Virus record (IMG/VR): IMGVR_UViG_3300037321_000150
Coordinates: 1 to 42,400 of that record
DNA: 42,400 nt
Source of the DNA: a virus
Reading direction: 5' to 3' (one strand)
Shown: in pieces, positions 1 through 36,772 of the stretch
Numbering within the stretch: position 1 is the stretch's first letter
Layout: the number at the start of each line of letters is the position of its first letter
The notes under the pieces: generated by a model
The model's input: the letters and a program-made list of their open reading frames with translations, nothing else
What the model was told of the DNA's origin: nothing
Databases searched by the model: none
Program-made: the position numbers and the translations under genes

Positions 1-1163
1 CGGGCTACGAGGTCTTCGGCGTCGGCTTGTACGAGGTAGCTGTCTGACACGGGCTGCAAGGCAATGTGGGCGCGGTCGGTAATGAGGTAGCATTGCTCGG
101 AAAAGTAGAGCTCTTGCCACCAGGCTTTTTGGGCCTGCACCTGATGCCTCGGAAAGCCAAAGGCCACGGAAAGCTCACGCTCGCCGCTGACGCGATTGAT
201 GATGCGCTCCTGGGCAGTGGGTAGGTAGTCGTAGCCCGTGAACTGATCGGCGAGCTCGCGGGTCACTTTGAGGGTTTCGGTGGCGTCGCCGGTGAGGGCG
301 AGGGTATCGAAGCTTCCGAGGCTGTTTTCGAACAATAGGTACCGAACTTGACGGTGATAGGTGCGGTCGACGTAGTAGGTGCGGATCTCGGATAGGCGCT
401 CATTGGCTTCGTTGGAAATCCAGAGATCGTAGTGCAATACTTCTTGGGGTAGTGCCAGTAGCCCAAGCGCCTGCATGCCTACGGGGATGCAGTAGGCCGT
501 CATGGCCTGCGCCCCGGCTAGGGTGGTGGCGGTGAGGGTGTGGCGGGTGTGGTCGGCGTAGAGTACGTTCACCCGCACGCGCAGCTCGGTGGGGGCCGGG
601 TTGATGTTGGTGAGGTAGGTAAGGTACTCGGGCTGATCGGTACGGATGTTGCTGCGGTTGGGCTTGTAGGTAAGAAACTTGCGGCCCTGGGTGTAGCGGC
701 TGAAAAAGGTATCCTTGAAGTCGGCGTAGTGGCTGGGGCCAACCCCAGCCCGGTAGACGTAGCCCGTGGGTAGCTGGGTGGTGTCGATGGGCGCTTCGGC
801 GTCGAGCCGGCGCGATACGGCATAGTACGACGTGGTGAGGGTATCACACACACTGATGGCCTGCTGGCCAAAGTCGGGTGGGTAAGCCATGAGCTGCGAA
901 TGCAGCAGGTCAGCGACATCGAAGTAGGCCCCGGCGTAGATGGTAGCGTCGGCGGTGCTGGCTGGCGGCTCCTCGGAGGCCTCTAAGGTGGTGAGCAGCT
1001 GGTAGTCTTGGCCCTGAAAGTATTTGGGCAGGTAGATATCCAGGAGGTACCTGAGCCCCGACCGGGTGGGGTACTCGGTGGGGCTCAGGGGGTCGGTATT
1101 GAGGACGATCGGGTTTTTGGACAGGGCCAGGTCGATGGTCGTGAAGTTAGCTAAGGAGTCCAT
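1..1163 (-). CDS. Tail-region protein of unknown function, C-terminus cut by window edge
   Basis: From the ATG at 1163 the frame stays open for about 387 codons to the left edge, so the gene is partial here. The product starts MDSLANFTTIDLALSK and is rich in Thr, Tyr, Leu and Asp with no signal peptide, membrane segment or motif I recognise. It overlaps the end of the preceding gene by 17 bases, which suggests translational coupling in one tail operon. If base 1 is joined to base 42400, the frame continues nine more codons to a TAA that lies 17 bases before the tape-measure ATG. A virion tail or neck protein is an inference from position only. Confidence 0.75.
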   Translation of the reverse strand, partial: MDSLANFTTIDLALSKNPIVLNTDPLSPTEYPTRSGLRYLLDIYLPKYFQGQDYQLLTTLEASEEPPASTADATIYAGAYFDVADLLHSQLMAYPPDFGQQAISVCDTLTTSYYAVSRRLDAEAPIDTTQLPTGYVYRAGVGPSHYADFKDTFFSRYTQGRKFLTYKPNRSNIRTDQPEYLTYLTNINPAPTELRVRVNVLYADHTRHTLTATTLAGAQAMTAYCIPVGMQALGLLALPQEVLHYDLWISNEANERLSEIRTYYVDRTYHRQVRYLLFENSLGSFDTLALTGDATETLKVTRELADQFTGYDYLPTAQERIINRVSGERELSVAFGFPRHQVQAQKAWWQELYFSEQCYLITDRAHIALQPVSDSYLVQADAEDLVA

Positions 1164-1620
1164 TGGCGTTAAGATAGAGTTCAAAATCAAGTTTCCAGCC
1201 GAAGTGGTTATTGGCCCAGGCGCGGTCGACGGCAGTTTTGCGCATGCCCGACAAACTGCAATGGATGAAGCCCTTGGCGCGGTTATCGGCCAGCATTTGT
1301 TTTTGCAGGTCGTAGATAATCCTGACGGAATCTATTTCGGCCTGGGTTTGCTCCTGGGGGCTATCGAGTGGGGGGGCGTAGATGACACTCACGCCACCAT
1401 AATAGACTTCGGTGAACTGGCTGGCGTCGTTGTCTTCGGACCGGATTTCGGGTTGTTCGAGCCACAGGAACGGGTACGAGAAATCTTCGTGGCCGGTGGC
1501 GTACTGGATGCCCAGCTCTACGCCTCCGTACAGAAAAAAATTAATGTCAGGATGGTTGGCGGCGAAATCCTTGAAATAGTTGATGTAGGATTCGAAGTCG
1601 GCAGAAACTAGCATGGGCAT
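1147..1620 (-). CDS. Small tail-region protein, possible tail completion/terminator protein
   Basis: 157 residues starting MPMLVSADFESYINYFKDF. There is no clear family motif. The size, an acidic aromatic-rich sequence, and a position ahead of tail genes and after two chaperone-like genes would suit a tail terminator or completion protein, but that is inference. It is the first gene of a unit: a TAGGACAGA box lies 49 bases upstream of the ATG and the AT-rich cassette island lies beyond. It overlaps the next gene, which starts at 1163. Confidence 0.7.
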   Translation of the reverse strand: MPMLVSADFESYINYFKDFAANHPDINFFLYGGVELGIQYATGHEDFSYPFLWLEQPEIRSEDNDASQFTEVYYGGVSVIYAPPLDSPQEQTQAEIDSVRIIYDLQKQMLADNRAKGFIHCSLSGMRKTAVDRAWANNHFGWKLDFELYLNANGLLS

Positions 1621-1668
1621 TCCGTGGTGAGTGAATGCGTGAAGGTCGGAAGGTTTGGGGGGTTGGAG

Positions 1669-1677
1669 TAGGACAGA
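1669..1677 (-). promoter_or_regulatory. TAGGACAGA box (TCTGTCCTA on the coding strand)
   Basis: Exact copy of a 9-base box also found at 10894 and 17993. It lies 49 bases upstream of the start at 1620 and is followed on the plus strand by a polypurine run (about 1684-1708). Candidate phage-specific late promoter element. Confidence 0.5.
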
Positions 1678-1718
1678 AATTTTTGGAGGAAGGGAGGAAG
1701 GGAGGAAAGCTTGTGCAA

Positions 1719-1741
1719 CACCCTAATTTTGGTAGGGCGTG
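1719..1741. terminator. Weak hairpin between cassette island and tail operon
   Basis: CACCCTA at 1719-1725 pairs with TAGGGcGTG at 1733-1741 with one bulged base. There is no strong U run, so termination is uncertain. It lies between the small HTH gene and the TAGGACAGA box. Confidence 0.3.
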
Positions 1742-1768
1742 ACACAGCGTAAATAAATTGAGGGGAAA

Positions 1769-1981
1769 TTAAAAAGTGGTTGGAAGTTGTAACGCTTCCC
1801 GAAGGATTACATATTGTTTCATATTTAGCCAGAAACGACCGCTTTCAAAACGTTTTATTGTTGCAATGCCTAATCCTGTTTGATCTGCAAGTGCAGCCTG
1901 GGAAATACCCAATTCGTTTCTTCTATTTTTAATGAAGCCCGCAATTTTCAAACGAGCTTCATTAAGGTCCTTGTCTGTCAT
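1769..1981 (-). CDS. Small XRE-type helix-turn-helix protein
   Basis: 70 residues. The pattern RNELGISQAALADQTGLG, then IATIKRFESGR, is the standard five-helix HTH_3 (XRE/Cro-C1) fold, and the protein has nothing beyond that domain. Proteins of this kind act as antitoxins or local repressors. Its start follows directly (TAACATG) the stop of a truncated open frame at 1983-2126, which may have been a partner. Its AT-rich composition matches the cassette island rather than the tail genes next to it. Confidence 0.8.
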   Translation of the reverse strand: MTDKDLNEARLKIAGFIKNRRNELGISQAALADQTGLGIATIKRFESGRFWLNMKQYVILREALQLPTTF

Positions 1982-1982
1982 G

Positions 1983-2126
1983 TTAATTATATAACTGTGA
2001 TTGCATTTCCATTGCCATCTCGTAAGTAACTATTTTGTTATCCTCTATCGCGGTTTCAAATTTCGATGCGAAGTTTTTCCATGCTGCTAAGGCAATCATA
2101 ATACTGTCATGGCTTCGGGTAGCTGC
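1983..2126 (-). pseudogene. 5'-truncated ORF remnant ahead of the HTH gene
   Basis: An open frame of 47 codons with no start ends at TAA 1983-1985; its product contains HDSIMIALAAWKNFASKF and ends EMQSQLYN. The composition looks like real protein. The frame is cut on its upstream side exactly where the attC-like arm of the neighbouring cassette (2111-2141) begins. It is probably the 3' part of a gene that lost its 5' end when the cassette was joined. I do not know the family. Confidence 0.5.
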
Positions 2127-2131
2127 AAACC

Positions 2132-2786
2132 GTTATAGGGCATTTAAGGAGCAAACAACAGACCATTTGCGGGATGCTTAATGTTTGTATAACTTTTGCC
2201 TGAATAATCGGCAAGAGCTTTCAAACATTCTTGAACTCCCGCTTCGTAATTTTCCTTAACAATAAATACACGGTGAATCTTTCGTCTTTGGTCTGTACCA
2301 CCGTGAAAACTGTGATAAACGGTGAATGCACCGTTTTTCCCTCTATATCCCCAAGTTTCACCACAACCCCAAAATTGGTTGTGGTTTGCGTATTGGTTGC
2401 CTTCATCAATTGAGCTTGTCATTTCTTCAAGTTCAATGTTTTCAATTTCAGATTCTGGAATAACGAAAACCATATCTTTTGAAATTCTAAACTCTGAGCG
2501 TAGTAGCTCAATTGCTGTCATGTCGCTTTGTGGCTTAATTGCCCAGACTGACCCGCAATTATACCCAAGCGAGCCACCTATTTTAACACTTGTTTCACCG
2601 GCTTTAGCTCCGTCAGTATTCCATCCAGAAACCTTTATGTGAGTTTCAGATTTTTTTTCAATTATATAATGGTGACGACCTAACGTCCCACCTGCACGGA
2701 GTTCAACTCCTGTTTCTTTTTCGCTAAGTTGAGCGAATGTGTAATAACGATTTGCCATAATTATTTGAATTAAAACGCCCTATAAC
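2132..2786 (-). mobile_element. Integron-like gene cassette A
   Basis: A perfect 10-base inverted pair, GTTATAGGGC at 2132-2141 and GCCCTATAAC at 2777-2786, brackets a single gene with little non-coding sequence. This is the geometry of an integron cassette: it begins with the TTRRRY-like half of a core site and ends, just after the stop codon, with the complementary inverse core. The 3' attC seems reduced to one arm (about 2111-2141), since the following sequence is an unrelated ORF remnant. Confidence 0.6.
2144..2758 (-). CDS. Cassette A protein, unknown function
   Basis: 204 residues starting MANRYYTFAQLSEKE. No signal peptide, membrane segment or known motif is evident. The middle is Gly/Trp-rich (residues about 125-155, with FWGCGETWGYRGKNG), and the C-terminal third is Lys/Tyr-rich. 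The gene fills cassette A: the ATG is 19 bases from the cassette's leading core and the stop is 3 bases from its trailing core, as in compact integron cassettes. No function is proposed. Confidence 0.7.
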   Translation of the reverse strand: MANRYYTFAQLSEKETGVELRAGGTLGRHHYIIEKKSETHIKVSGWNTDGAKAGETSVKIGGSLGYNCGSVWAIKPQSDMTAIELLRSEFRISKDMVFVIPESEIENIELEEMTSSIDEGNQYANHNQFWGCGETWGYRGKNGAFTVYHSFHGGTDQRRKIHRVFIVKENYEAGVQECLKALADYSGKSYTNIKHPANGLLFAP

Positions 2787-2873
2787 ATTGCATACACAAA
2801 AGCTGGGCGGAAGTGCTAATATGTACGTTCGGGTTAAAGAAGCCCCGCCTTCGTGTATGCCTTGACGTTGCTT
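2780..2873 (-). repeat. attC-like recombination site 1
   Basis: The outer cores are CTATAAC (2780-2786) and GTTGCTT (2867-2873). Inside them, GCATACAC.AAAGCTGGGCGG (2790-2810) pairs imperfectly with CCCGCCTTCGTGTATGC (2844-2860), leaving bulged bases and a loop. The length of about 94 bases, GTT/AAC outer triplets and imperfect inner stem fit integron attC sites. Confidence 0.6.
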
Positions 2874-3152
2874 ACAGCGAAAACATCCGGCATTATTTCT
2901 TCTTTTAGGTCAGGGAAAAAATTTCCGTGACCTAAAAGAATATTTTGGTTTCAAGCCTGCTTGTCATGTTTGTTTGCGCTTGACATTTTATTTTCGCCGA
3001 ATTAAGGTTGCCGCCCGTTTTTTGTTTTAGCTGAATTGCTTATACAAATATGATATCATTTTTGATACCATACAAGTTTTTTTGCAAACTATTTTAAAAA
3101 TAATTTTCCCTCAATTTCAAAGAACTAATTCGACCACCTTAATTATGCCTTC
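2874..3152. other. Gene-free AT-rich stretch between attC-like sites 1 and 2
   Basis: No convincing ORF on either strand. It holds the hairpin at 2899-2940 and, near 3047-3071, short palindromic sequence including ATGATATCAT that could be an operator or promoter. It may be a non-coding cassette, since attC-like sites lie on both sides. Confidence 0.4.
2899..2940. terminator. Perfect hairpin, possible bidirectional terminator
   Basis: TTCTTTTAGGTCA pairs perfectly with TGACCTAAAAGAA around a 16-base loop. U-rich ends occur on both strands. It lies in a gene-free stretch between two attC-like sites. Confidence 0.5.
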
Positions 3153-3282
3153 CTACAACAACGTATTGCTTCTATTGTGGCAGGACGAATAACACTCATC
3201 ATTAGTTATCTATTAAGCATCGGTTGTATGCAATCGGAAGGAACAATGAAGTCCACAACAGCAGCAATACCGAACGTTATCG
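3153..3282. repeat. attC-like recombination site 2
   Basis: Cores are CTACAAC (3153-3159) and GTTATCG (3276-3282). The arms GTATTGCTTCTATTGTGG (3163-3180) and CCACAACAGCAGCAATACC (3253-3271) are complementary apart from two mismatches. The roughly 130-base length is within the usual attC range. The downstream core opens straight into the plus-strand gene at 3313. Confidence 0.65.
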
Positions 3283-3312
3283 TTTCGGGCGGCAAATTAA
3301 AGGAAACCCACT

Positions 3313-3516
3313 ATGGCAAAGAAAAAAGATAAATGGATTAAAGTAGTATTTTCAGCGGATTGCATTTATGAAGATTGGGATGAGGACAAAGAATGTCCAA
3401 CCTGCCCGGAATGCAGTAAGGATTATGCTGATTGCCCATGTCCGGGGCCAACGATGGAAGATGAATATGATTACAAAGAAGTTGAAAGTATTTTATACGC
3501 AAAAAAGAAATCATGA
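3313..3516 (+). CDS. Small cysteine-rich phage protein, probable zinc binder
   Basis: 67 residues with Cys at 17, 28, 31, 34, 41 and 43 followed by PGPTMEDEYDY, an acidic tail. The pattern CPTCPECSKDYADCPCPGP is one I know from small phage proteins encoded just ahead of a putative DNA-methylase-like gene, and the same arrangement appears here: its stop overlaps the next ATG as ATGA. It is on the plus strand, against the phage genes around it, and begins 31 bases after attC-like site 2, so it is probably cassette cargo. Biochemical role unknown. Confidence 0.7.
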   Translation: MAKKKDKWIKVVFSADCIYEDWDEDKECPTCPECSKDYADCPCPGPTMEDEYDYKEVESILYAKKKS

Positions 3517-3599
3517 AAATAATAATAGGCTGCGAAGAAAGCCAAGCGGTTTGCAAGGCATTTAGGGAAGCAGGGCATGAAGCATTGCACAAATTTTAG
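3513..3599 (+). pseudogene. Truncated methylase-like gene fragment
   Basis: The ATG overlaps the preceding stop (ATGA). The product starts MKIIIGCEESQAVCKAFREA and stops after 28 residues. That start is characteristic of a longer phage protein annotated as a DNA cytosine-methylase-like enzyme with an N-terminal GCEESQ motif; everything after HEA is missing. The frame runs into unrelated sequence and a TAG, so this is the broken 5' end of that gene. Confidence 0.7.
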
Positions 3600-3656
3600 C
3601 TGAGTAATCATACCCATCTCCACCGTATAGTTGTAGTTTTTTCATGAGGCTCTACT

Positions 3657-4010
3657 TTATTGAGTGACTCCTTGTTTCTTGCACATGAATTCGTGGATGG
3701 CTTGTAGGGCCACCAGGGGGAGCTTGTGCTTGCGGCGCTGGATTTGGTAGTCGACTTCCCATAAGTCGGGATGACGGGTGCCGTTTTCTATTGCTCGTTT
3801 CCGTGCGATCAGCCAATTGACCATAGTGTTGTCGAGCTTGGTATCGGGTGGGATTTGGAGGCCATCTAGTGCCCCTAACCGAAAACGGATGGCTCCTAGC
3901 TGGTAGGAGAGCCATGGGGCGATGTACTCCCAGAGTACGCGAAATATCTGGATTCGGGGGTGGGCGTAGCTACGCTTGGCTTTGGGCTTCCATTTGTCGG
4001 AGTTGTTCAT
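3657..4010 (-). CDS. Tail-assembly-chaperone-like protein, second of pair
   Basis: 117 residues, basic (MNNSDKWKPKAKRSYAHP start; C-terminus CKKQGVTQ) with a helical middle. It overlaps the upstream gene by 41 bases in a different frame. Two overlapping genes between the lysis module and the tail genes resemble the tail-assembly chaperone pair that usually precedes a tape measure. The frame offset here would need a +1 or -2 shift to make a fusion, with A-rich sequence just upstream of 4010. The role is inferred from position. Confidence 0.6.
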   Translation of the reverse strand: MNNSDKWKPKAKRSYAHPRIQIFRVLWEYIAPWLSYQLGAIRFRLGALDGLQIPPDTKLDNTMVNWLIARKRAIENGTRHPDLWEVDYQIQRRKHKLPLVALQAIHEFMCKKQGVTQ

Positions 4011-4776
4011 CGTTTTTGATTTTCTTGTGTTTCAAATATAACCAAATAGTATGAACATTGGTAGCACAGACACTGTCAAAATTTCCGTGGACGCGGTTTT
4101 CGGCTACGTCTTCGATGGTGGAGAGCCAGCCTTCGCCATTATGAAAGAGGGTGCGGGCGTCGGGGGCGGCGTCGTATAGGTTGGCGTAGCGTTGCACGAA
4201 GGCGTTGTTGTGGTGCTCCCAGTATAAGATAATGGGCAGGATGGTTTCGAGGCTGAGCCGACGGAGTTTTTTGGCGCGTTGGCTGGCCCGAAGGGAGTTG
4301 TAGGGCTGGCGGTCGTCGCCGTCGTAGGAGGTGAAATGTTTGCGTAGCTGCCAACCGAAGCGGCGCGGGCGCAGGATGATGGCCAAGAATTCGTAGAGTG
4401 CGTCGGGGTTGGGCGCTTTGGGGTTGGAGTAGGCTAGGTAATAGATGTTGGCCATGGCTACTTCGATGGTGGAGCTGTCGGCGTAGGCGGGCTGTGGGAG
4501 GTAGTAGCGTGTAAGGCCCACGCGAACGTACGGAAACGGCGGCTCGGTGATGGGGGTGTTGATGGCCCAGCGCACGGCGTCGTAGAGATCGTTGCGGGCT
4601 ACGAGGGGCAGCTCGGCTACGTCTTGTAGCCCGGTGAGGACCTGCACGAGCTGGTTATAGAGGGGCAGCGTGAGGTCTTGGTCGTCGGTAGTACGGATGG
4701 CCAGTACCAGGGGTAGGGCTTTTTTGAGCTGCCTAGGGCTACACTCGGCCCATGATGCTGGTATTTTGTTTTTCAT
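3970..4776 (-). CDS. Tail-assembly-chaperone-like protein, first of pair
   Basis: 268 residues. The start KIPASWAECSPRQLKKALPL follows the 'lPesW.elt..q' pattern seen in phage tail assembly chaperones and related Bacteroidota phage proteins. The rest is helical with many Leu, Tyr and Arg and no membrane segments. It follows the endolysin by 11 bases and overlaps the next gene. The chaperone role is suggested by the N-terminal pattern and the two-gene overlap, not proven. Confidence 0.65.
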   Translation of the reverse strand: MKNKIPASWAECSPRQLKKALPLVLAIRTTDDQDLTLPLYNQLVQVLTGLQDVAELPLVARNDLYDAVRWAINTPITEPPFPYVRVGLTRYYLPQPAYADSSTIEVAMANIYYLAYSNPKAPNPDALYEFLAIILRPRRFGWQLRKHFTSYDGDDRQPYNSLRASQRAKKLRRLSLETILPIILYWEHHNNAFVQRYANLYDAAPDARTLFHNGEGWLSTIEDVAENRVHGNFDSVCATNVHTIWLYLKHKKIKNDEQLRQMEAQSQA

Positions 4777-4787
4777 GCGGGAGCGAT

Positions 4788-5246
4788 TCAGGTGCTTTTG
4801 TAGTAGGTTTTGCCGGCAATGCGCAGGGCGGTGAGCTGCTGGCGCCGGTGGCGTTCAGAATAGCTAACGTGGATCCAGGAGGGTTCGCCTTGGGCGTCGG
4901 GAAATTCGGCAATGAGTTGGTCGAAGGGCAGGTTGAGCGCTACGATCCTGTCGAGTAGTTCGGCGTTGCTGACACCGGGGCTGCTGATGTCGGCGGCTTG
5001 GCCCTGCACGTGTTGTGAGCTGCGGGCCCCACCAATGGCGCGGTTGAGCCGGGGGCAGCGGTAGCCACTGCTTACGCGGATGGGTACGCCGACGCTGAGC
5101 CGGAGGGGTTCAAGGATATTGACGGATAAGGCCCGGAGGTTTTCGGTGATCTCCTCCGACGGCGCGAACTGTTCCTTGTAGCCGCGACGGGTGGCGGTTT
5201 GGCTGGCTAGCATTTCGGCTAGGGTGAAGCGCTCGGATAGTTTCAT
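4788..5246 (-). CDS. Peptidase M15-family endolysin
   Basis: 152 residues, typical length for a single-domain M15_3 peptidase (D-Ala-D-Ala carboxypeptidase-like) that cuts peptidoglycan cross-links. The zinc site is visible: SSQHVQGQAAD gives His79 and Asp86, and SWIHVSY gives His126. SSGYRCPRLN at 59-68 is the usual conserved entry to the fold. No signal peptide, so it depends on the holin. Its ATG overlaps the holin stop (ATGA at 5243-5246), making a holin-endolysin cassette. Confidence 0.9.
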   Translation of the reverse strand: MKLSERFTLAEMLASQTATRRGYKEQFAPSEEITENLRALSVNILEPLRLSVGVPIRVSSGYRCPRLNRAIGGARSSQHVQGQAADISSPGVSNAELLDRIVALNLPFDQLIAEFPDAQGEPSWIHVSYSERHRRQQLTALRIAGKTYYKST

Positions 5247-5845
5247 GGCGCTGGCTTGGTGTCTTTCTTCTCGTCGGTAACCTCGGGCGGTGTTTTCAGC
5301 AGATCGGCAAACTCTCCGGTCTTGCGGAACCGCCGAAAGGTAGCCGAAAACCAGGCGGGTACGTAGTTGGGCAGGATCTGCTCGATCAGGTCTAGGGATT
5401 TAAGGGTGTGGTAGGTGAAGGTGATCATGTAGCCGGAATAGATGAAGTACATGCCGATGATAGGCCCAGTGGGCACGTCGACAATCCCGACCCGTGAGGC
5501 GATGGTAAGGACGCCAAAAATAGCAATGGCGAATAGGTAGCCGAGCACGATGACGGACACCATGACGGTAAGCTGCGTGGCGGTCTTGATGAGAAACACC
5601 TTAGCGTCACGCTCTTTGTTTTTTATGTGCTTGACGAGCCCGAGCATGCTCATGAGCGCGAAGGCGATGAAAGTAATGTAGGCGAAGTCGGCGGTGACGT
5701 CGCTGTCTTGCATCAGTACGCGCATGAAGCCACTGGTGGCCAGTGCTATGGCTAGTAGGCCTTTGTCGGCAAGGGTGGATGTGAGGCCATCTGCCAGGTC
5801 GTTAAGAAAATTGTTCACGGTATAGTCTCGAAAGTATGGTTTCAT
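5243..5845 (-). CDS. Phage holin, Holin_4-like
   Basis: 200 residues from the ATG at 5845 (MKPYFRDYTVNNFLNDLADG), chosen because the upstream in-frame extension is low-complexity, overlaps the neighbouring gene and lacks membrane character. There are four hydrophobic segments, around residues 30-50, 60-80, 90-125 and 130-160, then a charged tail ending DEKKDTKPAP. This matches the phage holin family of toxin-secretion/lysis proteins. It is translationally coupled to the M15 endolysin. Confidence 0.8.
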   Translation of the reverse strand: MKPYFRDYTVNNFLNDLADGLTSTLADKGLLAIALATSGFMRVLMQDSDVTADFAYITFIAFALMSMLGLVKHIKNKERDAKVFLIKTATQLTVMVSVIVLGYLFAIAIFGVLTIASRVGIVDVPTGPIIGMYFIYSGYMITFTYHTLKSLDLIEQILPNYVPAWFSATFRRFRKTGEFADLLKTPPEVTDEKKDTKPAP

Positions 5846-5855
5846 GGTTTCGTGT

Positions 5856-6245
5856 TTAGATGGGTACAAGGAGGCCAAGTAGGAACCCTTCAAGGCGCGC
5901 TTTCCAGCGCTGGCGGCGGCGGTATTTCTGGTCGGTGAGCAGTGCTTGCTGGTGCAGGCGCTCTGTGATGGCGGCTTGCAGGCGTAGCACTCTGACTTCG
6001 TGGGCGAGGGCCTGGTTGTGTTGCTGTGTGTACTCATGGGCTTTCAGGAGGTTTTGGTGGGTGTGCTGGAGCTGGGTGTAGAGCAGCAGGCTGTCGAGCA
6101 GGGCGTTTTCGTAGGCTGTCGAGAACTCGTCCCTGGACAATTGCCCGGAGGCTGTCGCGGAGCAGCACAGTAGTAGCATCACCACGAAACAGGCGCACGG
6201 CCAGGCTGTGGAGTTCGGACTTGGATTGTTGGTAGCGTATTTCAT
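5856..6245 (-). CDS. Spanin-like exported coiled protein (embedded gene)
   Basis: 129 residues from the ATG at 6245. An N-terminal hydrophobic signal (CFVVMLLLCCSATASG, about residues 19-34) is followed by a long helical, Gln/Leu/His-rich region and a second hydrophobic stretch at the end (LEGFLLGLLVPI). About 210 bases of its 5' part overlap the preceding gene in another frame, the nested layout of Rz/Rz1 spanins. It sits directly before the holin. No clean lipobox is visible. It could be a divergent spanin subunit. Confidence 0.55.
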   Translation of the reverse strand: MKYATNNPSPNSTAWPCACFVVMLLLCCSATASGQLSRDEFSTAYENALLDSLLLYTQLQHTHQNLLKAHEYTQQHNQALAHEVRVLRLQAAITERLHQQALLTDQKYRRRQRWKARLEGFLLGLLVPI

Positions 6246-35377: not shown

Positions 35378-35461
35378 ATGCCAGCACAAAAAGCCCGAAT
35401 GCCAGTTGAATTCTAAGCAAAAATAGCCCTCACAGGCTGCAAATGGATAATGAGTAAGAAA

Positions 35462-35494
35462 CTTAGGAGGGTTCGAATCCCTCCGTCTCCACCA
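35462..35494 (+). other. attP-like core: 3' end of a tRNA or tmRNA gene
   Basis: A complete T arm (GAGGG-TTCGAAT-CCCTC, 35467-35483), acceptor 3' strand CGTCTCC (35484-35490), discriminator A and CCA (35492-35494). U at acceptor position 70 would allow the G3-U70 pair of tRNA-Ala and tmRNA. No 5' half precedes it, so this is the copied 3' end carried by the phage as its attachment core, beside the integrase. Confidence 0.75.
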
Positions 35495-35499
35495 GAGTT

Positions 35500-35535
35500 A
35501 AGCGGCTCGAAATCAGGGATTTCGGGCCGCTTTTT
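35500..35535 (+). terminator. Rho-independent terminator carried with the tRNA/tmRNA end
   Basis: AAGCGGC with GCCGCTT and CGAAAT with ATTTCG form a strong nested stem, followed by T5. It would end the host tRNA or tmRNA transcript after integration. Confidence 0.8.
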
Positions 35536-35554
35536 GCGTAAGGGAATGGCCCAA

Positions 35555-35571
35555 GTGCCAGCTACGTGCCA
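35555..35571 (+). repeat. 17-base arm-type repeat, right copy
   Basis: GTGCCAGCTACGTGCCA, same orientation as the copy at 35361, 194 bases apart with the att core between. It lies between the terminator and the integrase start. Confidence 0.6.
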
Positions 35572-35599
35572 GTACCTTATCGAAACGCAGGGCCTTTTT

Positions 35600-36772
35600 A
35601 TGCCAAAAATCCCAGAGAAATACCCCTACCGTGAGGCCGTTTTGTCGGATGCTAAGGGCGATGTTTCCAAAAAGTGGTACATCAATTATTACGCGTGGTC
35701 GGAGCGGCAGGGCAAGCTGATCCGCAAGCGCGTGGTCATTAACCAGCCGACCGCCAAGCAGCGATACGAGCAAGCGAAAGCCATCATCGTGCTGATTAAT
35801 GTGGAGCTGAGGGCGGGGGCGGTCGTAGAGCCGATTCCGGTCGTAGAGCCTGCGGTGAGGGCGACGATGGCCATGGACGAAGCCGTGGCCTTTTTCCAGA
35901 AGGTGAAAAAGGCCACAGTGAGCCAGAACACCGTGAAGGCTTATGCGAAGGATTTGAAAGAGTTTTTGGCCTTCCTGAAAAAAGAGGAGCTGGAAAAACT
36001 GCCGCTGGTTGATTTCTGCCTGGACGATGCCTGGGCATTTTCGGACTACCTCGATCAGAAAAATATTGCCAAAAAAACCTACAGTAATTTCATCGGCACC
36101 CTGCGGGGGATGTGGGCGCACCTGATCGGGCGAGAGATTATTGCCGAAAACCCTTTTCTGAAAATCCCGAAACGGAAGGGCGGCAAGACGCAGCACATTC
36201 CCTACCAGCCTGCGCAGGTAAGGATTTTCCGGCAGATTTGCCTGCACGTTGAGCAGGATAACCAGCTTTGGCTGTTCGTCAATTTCATTTATTACTGCTT
36301 TTTTCGCCCCGCCGCCGAAGCCCAGAAGTTACAGGTTAAGCACATCCTGAAACGGACGATTATCGTGCCGGGAACCATTGCGAAAAACGGCGACTCGGAA
36401 CACGTGCGGATTCCGTCAGGGCTGGAAAAATTGATTGAGGAATACCAGCTCCGCTCCTACCCTCCCGGCTATTATGTGTTTTCGACGCTGGGCGTACCTG
36501 GGCCGGAGGCGGTGGGAGAGCGCTATATGTACACGCATAACCGGATCATTCTGGAATTGGCCCAATTCACCGATCAGCAGTACGACCTTTATGGATTTAA
36601 GCACACGGGCGTTATCGCGCTTTACCTGGCCACGCGTGACATTAAGCTGATCCAAGCCCAATGCCGACATAAGGACATCTCGACGACAGACATTTACCTG
36701 CGAGACTTGGGGCTTTTTCTCGATCAGGATGCGCTGGATATTTTCCCGGATCCCGGGCGGGATCATACCTAG
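35600..36772 (+). CDS. int: Tyrosine-family integrase
   Basis: 390 residues from the ATG at 35600 (MPKIPEKYPYREAVLSD). Earlier in-frame starts would translate the tRNA end and terminator, so they are rejected. A SAM-like core-binding domain spans about 90-185 and the catalytic domain about 200-375: Arg236 in CFFRPAAEAQKL, His335 in GFKHTG (Lys334 next to it, as in many Bacteroidota integrases), His357 in CRHKDIS, and nucleophile Tyr366. It integrates and excises the phage at the tRNA/tmRNA end directly upstream. It is convergent with the tail gene at 36797. Confidence 0.92.
   Translation: MPKIPEKYPYREAVLSDAKGDVSKKWYINYYAWSERQGKLIRKRVVINQPTAKQRYEQAKAIIVLINVELRAGAVVEPIPVVEPAVRATMAMDEAVAFFQKVKKATVSQNTVKAYAKDLKEFLAFLKKEELEKLPLVDFCLDDAWAFSDYLDQKNIAKKTYSNFIGTLRGMWAHLIGREIIAENPFLKIPKRKGGKTQHIPYQPAQVRIFRQICLHVEQDNQLWLFVNFIYYCFFRPAAEAQKLQVKHILKRTIIVPGTIAKNGDSEHVRIPSGLEKLIEEYQLRSYPPGYYVFSTLGVPGPEAVGERYMYTHNRIILELAQFTDQQYDLYGFKHTGVIALYLATRDIKLIQAQCRHKDISTTDIYLRDLGLFLDQDALDIFPDPGRDHT

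Follow-up and report, generated by a model that had tools for sequence, protein, structure and literature searches.

The 42.4-kb linear IMG/VR contig that was analysed here as a whole (the window) contains a 735-bp gene cassette, which is very probably a single unit of an integron-like system that Bacteroidota phages carry. The complete version of this system would comprise an attI-like site (AAC|TATTATATATA), a XerA-like tyrosine recombinase of about 266 aa and an array of short cassettes located 5' of the recombinase gene, each cassette having its hairpin attC and, as a rule, a single small ORF that reads towards the recombinase and is antisense to the attC. In the proposed mechanism, the recombinase would cut the folded attC at G|TT (AA|C on the gene strand), and the cut site would be joined to attI or to another attC; whole cassettes could in this way be gained, lost and reordered, with their genes staying co-directional with the phage operon. 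We infer that this reaction is performed by the ~266-aa recombinase and on single-stranded attC. The sequences themselves show the structure of the sites, the matching of cores within arrays, the linkage to a recombinase, and that isolates as well as contigs differ from each other by exact whole cassettes. The broader claim, that Bacteroidota phages own a distinct and active integron lineage with a compact XerA-like recombinase lacking the IntI domain, a mirror-image architecture and a fast-changing set of small accessory genes, probably for counter-defence, we hold to be probable. The cassette in the window would be a displaced copy within a foreign 1.9-kb block, as part of an explanation that we regard as highly probable as a whole. 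Since the window itself holds only this displaced cassette, the best evidence on it comes from its relatives.

The cassette and the foreign block around it

Positions 2132-2866 form a real integron-type cassette, the parts of which are listed in Table 1. The R'' and R' cores surround an imperfect L''/L' hairpin, and the start core is complementary to the R'' core of its own attC in 10 of 10 positions (13 of 14 in the extended pair). The first-pass annotation had proposed an integron-like cassette on the basis of this inverted 10-base pair around a single gene; the pair is indeed present, with gaps of 2 nt between the ORF and one core and 18 nt to the other, and each core occurs only once in the whole contig, with no copy elsewhere. 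By itself such a pair is no significant evidence, since 82 perfect 10-base inverted pairs spaced 100-1000 nt apart occur in the window versus 23-62 in ten shuffles. When an attC-like hairpin (AAC..GTT) scoring at least 11 and a perfect partner core were required together, one case was found in the window and none in 50 shuffled windows, which makes this combination significant. The hairpin concerned (2784-2869), which adjoins the start of the ORF, has a score of 12.4, and none of 20 shuffled windows reached 12. The site finder was home-made and is backed by these shuffles and by a covariance model trained on ten other contigs with the window left out. The covariance search, suggested at first pass as the check on the proposal, was positive: positions 2777-2872 gave 53.5 bits (E 8e-13) on the + strand and 30.4 bits on the minus strand. 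Folding energy alone is no evidence for this attC, its single-strand DNA folding being only weakly better than that of shuffles (z -0.7 and -1.2), and an Rfam scan of window positions 1-6000 gave no match.

The attC-like site beside the ATG, initially described as a separate site directly upstream, is real and scored, but it belongs to the same cassette and not to a preceding one. In viral cassettes carrying the same ORF, the hairpin before the ORF is often shared, and the sequence after GCCCTATAAC never is; the unit is therefore composed of attC body, core, ORF and core. Its ends were inferred from the parts that co-travel in relatives and from the breakpoints in Freya isolates (see below) and viral contigs, all of which lie directly after AAC on the ORF strand. 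For the 204-aa cassette protein, relatives were absent from the viral contigs, genome contigs, phages and plasmids searched, Pfam gave nothing above the cut-off and PHROG gave no match, and a single-sequence AlphaFold model was unusable (pLDDT 35).

Table 1 Features of the window cassette and of the block in which it lies
Feature	Position	Strand	Remarks
Mobile cassette unit, 735 bp	2132-2866	+ (canonical attC orientation)	Boundaries G|TT (= AA|C on minus strand)
Cassette start core GTTATAGGGC	2132-2141	+	Exact pair with 2777-2786
Cassette ORF, 204 aa	2144-2758	-	Antisense to its attC
attC R'' core GCCCTATAAC	2777-2786	+	Reverse complement of GTTATAGGGC; within covariance-model match
attC body	2790-2860	+	Arms GCATACACAAAAGCTGGGC (2790-2808) and GCCCCGCCTTCGTGTATGC (2842-2860), 33-nt loop; repeat search and covariance-model match
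attC R' core GTTGCTTAC	2867-2875	+	Junction with left flank
Foreign 1.9-kb block	1698-3598		Absent from L004 and L005
HTH_3 (Cro/C1-type) gene in foreign block	1769-1981	-	Pfam PF01381, 9.6e-9
Second attC-like site (AAC ... GTTATCG)	3160-3278	+	Opens second, divergent, truncated cassette; score 13.6, none in shuffles
67-aa ORF directly after second attC	3313-3516	+	Partner core missing
Phage DNA methyltransferase, N-terminal fragment (MKIIIGCEESQAV..)	3513-3598	+	Cut by insert edge; blastn to Vibrio phage methyltransferase genes

Two contigs that are about 99% identical to the window phage (L004 and L005) were compared for the clean empty site that the first-pass annotation had expected in relatives. 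They lack the whole block and have 252 bp in its place, and they keep an intact small gene at the block site, of which the first codons survive in the window at about 3599-3644. Joining the flanks across the insertion point is uninformative, because two frames stay open over the joint and no homolog of a joined gene was found. The second attC-like site, which the first-pass annotation did not list, has arms at 3163-3180 and 3253-3270 and a DNA fold z of -2.3. A CALIN is recognised by two or more closely spaced attC sites with no integrase gene nearby; the window has two attC-like sites and the contig has no cognate recombinase, but the two sites are divergent and the second cassette is truncated. 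The only integrase of the window contig (440 aa, 35450-36772, + strand) is of the ordinary phage tyrosine type and unrelated to the cassette recombinase. Relatives of the methyltransferase fragment occur in cassette-bearing viral loci, and a relative of the 67-aa ORF was found in one contig only (L003), beside the same phage site. Taken together, the cassette appears to have come within a mosaic block, with no clean one-cassette insertion. Its placement in a phage tail region was inexact: the nearest recognisable gene encodes an M15 peptidase (4788-5246), and it is 35 kb to the tape-measure gene.

One or both junctions of the block could be an assembly chimera. We consider it rather unlikely, though well short of negligible, that the block as such arose by chimeric assembly of the phage with another cassette-carrying phage or bacterium. 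The absence of the block from both near-identical relatives would fit this, as would the finding that L003 joins the same phage base to a different point of the block, window position 3431, with TCAGC shared at the joint and the contig stopping 108 nt later. On the other hand, the break falls on one and the same phage base in two records with separate names, and the occurrence of the system in other contigs and in isolates is unaffected by the status of this block. The matching segments themselves (L003 7174-7281 and window 3324-3431) may reflect either recombination or an assembly chimera.

Some further repeats were seen around these positions. A near-perfect 19-bp inverted repeat (TTCTTTTAGGTCAGGGAAA / TTTCCGTGACCTAAAAGAA) at 2900-2940 is possibly a terminator or another hairpin element, and purine repeats (GGAAGGGAGGAAGG) lie at the edge of the foreign block (1680-1710). 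A similar tract (TTTCCTCC) is present in a related contig (L013, about 1500-1527).

Cassette arrays and the phage recombinase

Scanning of IMG/VR for the attC arms and TGTTATAGGGCGTTT yielded at least 80 distinct GTTATAGGGCGTTT..ORF..CCTATAAC units with the same geometry as in the window. Mostly these hold a single ORF of 42-138 aa, with the ATG usually 15-29 nt past the core and the stop codon just before or within the partner core. In 96 fetched loci, 317 attC-like sites were detected, and the cores of neighbouring sites match in 117 of 181 pairs (shuffled mean 24, maximum 35); when the searched core was left out of the test, 82 matches remained versus 14.6 in shuffles. The cassette-bearing viral loci are thus arrays, with at least seven core-matched sites in a 122-kb contig (L045) and about a dozen in a 180-kb contig (L039). 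Four viral contigs (L016, L019, L021 and L023) have the same 3' half-attC and ORF without a partner core, apparently a decayed and fixed cassette.

The products of most of the 71 cassette ORFs compared have no match at all. The matches that were obtained are to DNA methyltransferases (two), an RNA ligase, a Lar-like restriction-alleviation protein and families of unknown function, and a role of this cargo in phage-host conflict is plausible; that the cassettes serve such conflict is our interpretation.

A tyrosine recombinase of about 266 aa follows the cassettes in four contigs (L045, L051, L020 and L107). Searching from the cassette side, a convincing recombinase match was found in about 7 of 50 cassette-bearing viral contigs for which the record was searched; IMG/VR contigs can be fragments, and part of the cassette-bearing contigs may be recombinase-free arrays. 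A comparison of fetched flanks (recombinase in 5 of 87 cassette loci and in 1 of 43 non-cassette loci) was uninformative. Decisive for the linkage is the reverse search starting from the recombinase, for which a profile of six proteins was used. It gave 183 viral stretches with a relative, 80 of them being retained, and around the 51 distinct recombinase loci the density of attC-like sites is 0.99 per kb upstream versus 0.037 per kb downstream, a 27-fold difference. Of the neighbouring pairs upstream, 130 of 187 have matched cores, and at least one matched pair is present in 40 of the 51 loci. Of 50 recombinase contigs, 14 have terminase genes, among them six with lengths of 195-310 kb. The stretch that separates the last cassette from the recombinase contains, about 50-60 nt before the start codon of the latter, the conserved attI-like motif given above or a variant of it, and the cassettes end on this motif.

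The catalytic set R-K-H-R-H-Y of tyrosine recombinases is invariant in the phage enzymes (R132, K157/K160, H216, R219, H242 and Y251), and in related phage loci the recombinase lies next to the array. The enzymes score 151-158 bits against the integron-integrase model TIGR02249, which has a cut-off of 265 bits, and compared to IntI4 (2A3V) they lack the IntI-specific insert of about 48 aa; the region concerned spans 33 profile positions (177-210), where IntI4 holds about 80 residues. Their best sequence match is to XerA/XerC/XerD (PDB 4A8E), with 176-185 bits versus a cut-off of 220 for NF040815. In contrast to Xer recombinases, they are linked to cassette arrays rather than to dif sites. The phage recombinase seems to work like an integron integrase, yet it fails two tests for IntI, the cut-off score and the insert.

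Mirror arrangement and relation to known integrons

A Saprospiraceae MAG contig (JASBVF010000028.1, G013:C3) provides a reference for the polarity of the cassettes. It carries an attC array with near-identical arms (GCATACAC..) beside a 499-aa recombinase; cores of adjacent sites match from one cassette to the next, and its sense ORFs head away from the recombinase. Because the window attC reads on the + strand against this reference, the window ORF is antisense within its own cassette, which differs from the usual layout with ORF and attC in the same orientation and corrects the polarity assumed at first pass. The same holds for the phage loci in general: covariance-model matches lie on the strand opposite to the ORFs there, and on the same strand in the Saprospiraceae array, and the longest ORF is directed towards the recombinase in 83 of 92 phage cassettes with matched cores. 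The relatives on Bacteroidota chromosomes (L333-L338) carry sense ORFs, in an array that follows the recombinase on its 3' side. The phage variant accordingly has the array on the opposite side of the recombinase and genes that are turned round with respect to attC, a mirror layout that would keep the cassette genes co-directional with the recombinase and the phage operon. Arrays downstream of XerA-like recombinases were also noted in L174-L175, along with L333-L338; the chromosomal XerA-like recombinases that were scored stay below the integron-integrase cut-off, and a homolog at E<1e-35 is present in 68 of 198 genomes.

The origin of the window cassette as an ordinary CALIN fragment, i.e. 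a piece of a host chromosomal array that entered by illegitimate recombination with no part played by a phage-owned system, seems improbable to us. It is true that the window block replaces 252 bp of phage DNA and has no recombinase, that chromosomes of Saprospiraceae and other Bacteroidota hold near-identical arms beside a related recombinase, and that phage CALINs have been described before (Qi et al. 2023, PMC9892861). Host arrays, however, have sense ORFs 3' of the recombinase, whereas the window cassette has the antisense polarity of the phage arrays. Furthermore, the core with flanking GTTT gave 20 matches in 395 Bacteroidota genomes, not far from what the reversed-pattern control gave, and the bracketed hairpin-ORF structure was present in none of these 20. 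The comparison with chromosomal CALINs made at first pass is not supported either: dozens of viral contigs have cassettes of this type arrayed next to a recombinase that the phage encodes, and the relatives are for the most part no stray pieces of host CALINs.

The interpretation as a phage-carried integron-like system can be compared with what is known. That phages can acquire cassettes, as the first-pass annotation suggested, is true and was published before: integrons and CALINs were reported in sequenced phages, IntI1 worked on five of six tested phage attC sites, and the virulent Polaribacter phage P12002L was found to have attC sites with methyltransferase cassettes (Qi et al. 2023, PMC9892861). 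In the same study, complete integrons were found in temperate phages and prophages and were of host type (Vibrio, class 1, Shewanella), and the arrays of virulent phages had no integrase. As in that study, phage genomes here contain attC sites along with gene cassettes; the points of difference are that the array adjoins a recombinase of phage lineage with an attI-like site, that its ORFs are antisense, and that sequenced isolates differ by exact cassettes. With the chromosomal Bacteroidota arrays (JASBVF010000028.1, G126 and G031) the system shares the related recombinase, the near-identical attC arms and core-matched cassettes. With classical integrons (IntI/attI/attC) it has in common the architecture, the G|TT boundary, the cassette-wise complementarity of cores and an attI-like site by the recombinase. 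A phage-lineage recombinase with an attI-like site and a mirror-oriented array has no published description that we could find in the open-access literature, preprints excluded. Host-derived phage integrons and phage CALINs were already known; for the phage-owned, mirror-arranged variant, no counterpart was found in the open-access papers searched.

If the proposal is true, phages, and not hosts alone, maintain integrons as a platform for gene exchange, in genomes of up to 310 kb, and integron-like activity would be possible without the IntI-specific domain by which integron integrases are usually recognised. Tools that demand this domain may label complete integrons of Bacteroidota and their phages as CALINs.

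Probable exchange of cassettes among isolates and contigs

Natural variation in the arrays is best illustrated by Polaribacter phage Freya, of which seven isolates from one host have been sequenced. Their flanks are 99.8-100% identical, and the differences between them amount to exact whole cassettes: attI follows the last backbone gene at a distance of 30, 872, 1774, 2246, 4070, 4665 and 4972 nt in Freya_1, 2, 5, 6, 8, 9 and 10, respectively. The arrays are exact subsets of that of Freya_10, except for Freya_6, which has its own 472-bp cassette at attI. The differences sit just upstream of the gene annotated as "integrase", with every breakpoint directly after AAC. The Freya recombinase is about 37% identical to the query, and the Freya attC hairpins have lower scores (10-12). 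We regard these isolates as natural evidence of what appears to be an active phage-borne integron. The isolation paper interprets the integrase as pointing to a temperate potential, with no mention of integrons or cassettes (PMC8776804); this "integrase" probably serves cassette exchange, at least partly. With arrays that range from empty to about 4.9 kb on one host, cassette gain and loss as well as cargo function are directly testable in Freya.

Similar differences were found among viral contigs. In L235/L236 and L250, which belong to one phage lineage, the cassettes are reordered, and a cassette ending AATATTGTGTATAAC borders attI in L235/L236 and an attC in L250. Between L206 and L207, everything is swapped between GGATAAC| and |AATAATATGTAAACATCC.

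These breakpoints also bear on the idea that the unit is a transposon- or MITE-like element, with terminal inverted repeats of 10-14 bp around a small gene and a transposase acting in trans. The inverted pair does flank the ORF, and hairpin, core, ORF and core travel as a unit, but in the arrays the matching cores are specific to each cassette and differ between units, the breakpoints lie directly after AAC at attI or attC, no target duplication was noticed at the joints, and a tyrosine recombinase is linked to the arrays, so that we consider such an element very improbable. A chance inverted repeat, i.e. two 10-mers beside an unrelated hairpin, has a next to negligible probability despite the abundance of such pairs in the window, being refuted by the shuffled windows and the independent covariance-model match and opposed by dozens of homologous units of the same geometry.

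In another Polaribacter phage, Danklef_1 (L320, 40972-41491), the recombinase gene is broken and a short integrase ORF is left. Several attC-like sites are present upstream of the broken gene, and this array may have lost its enzyme.
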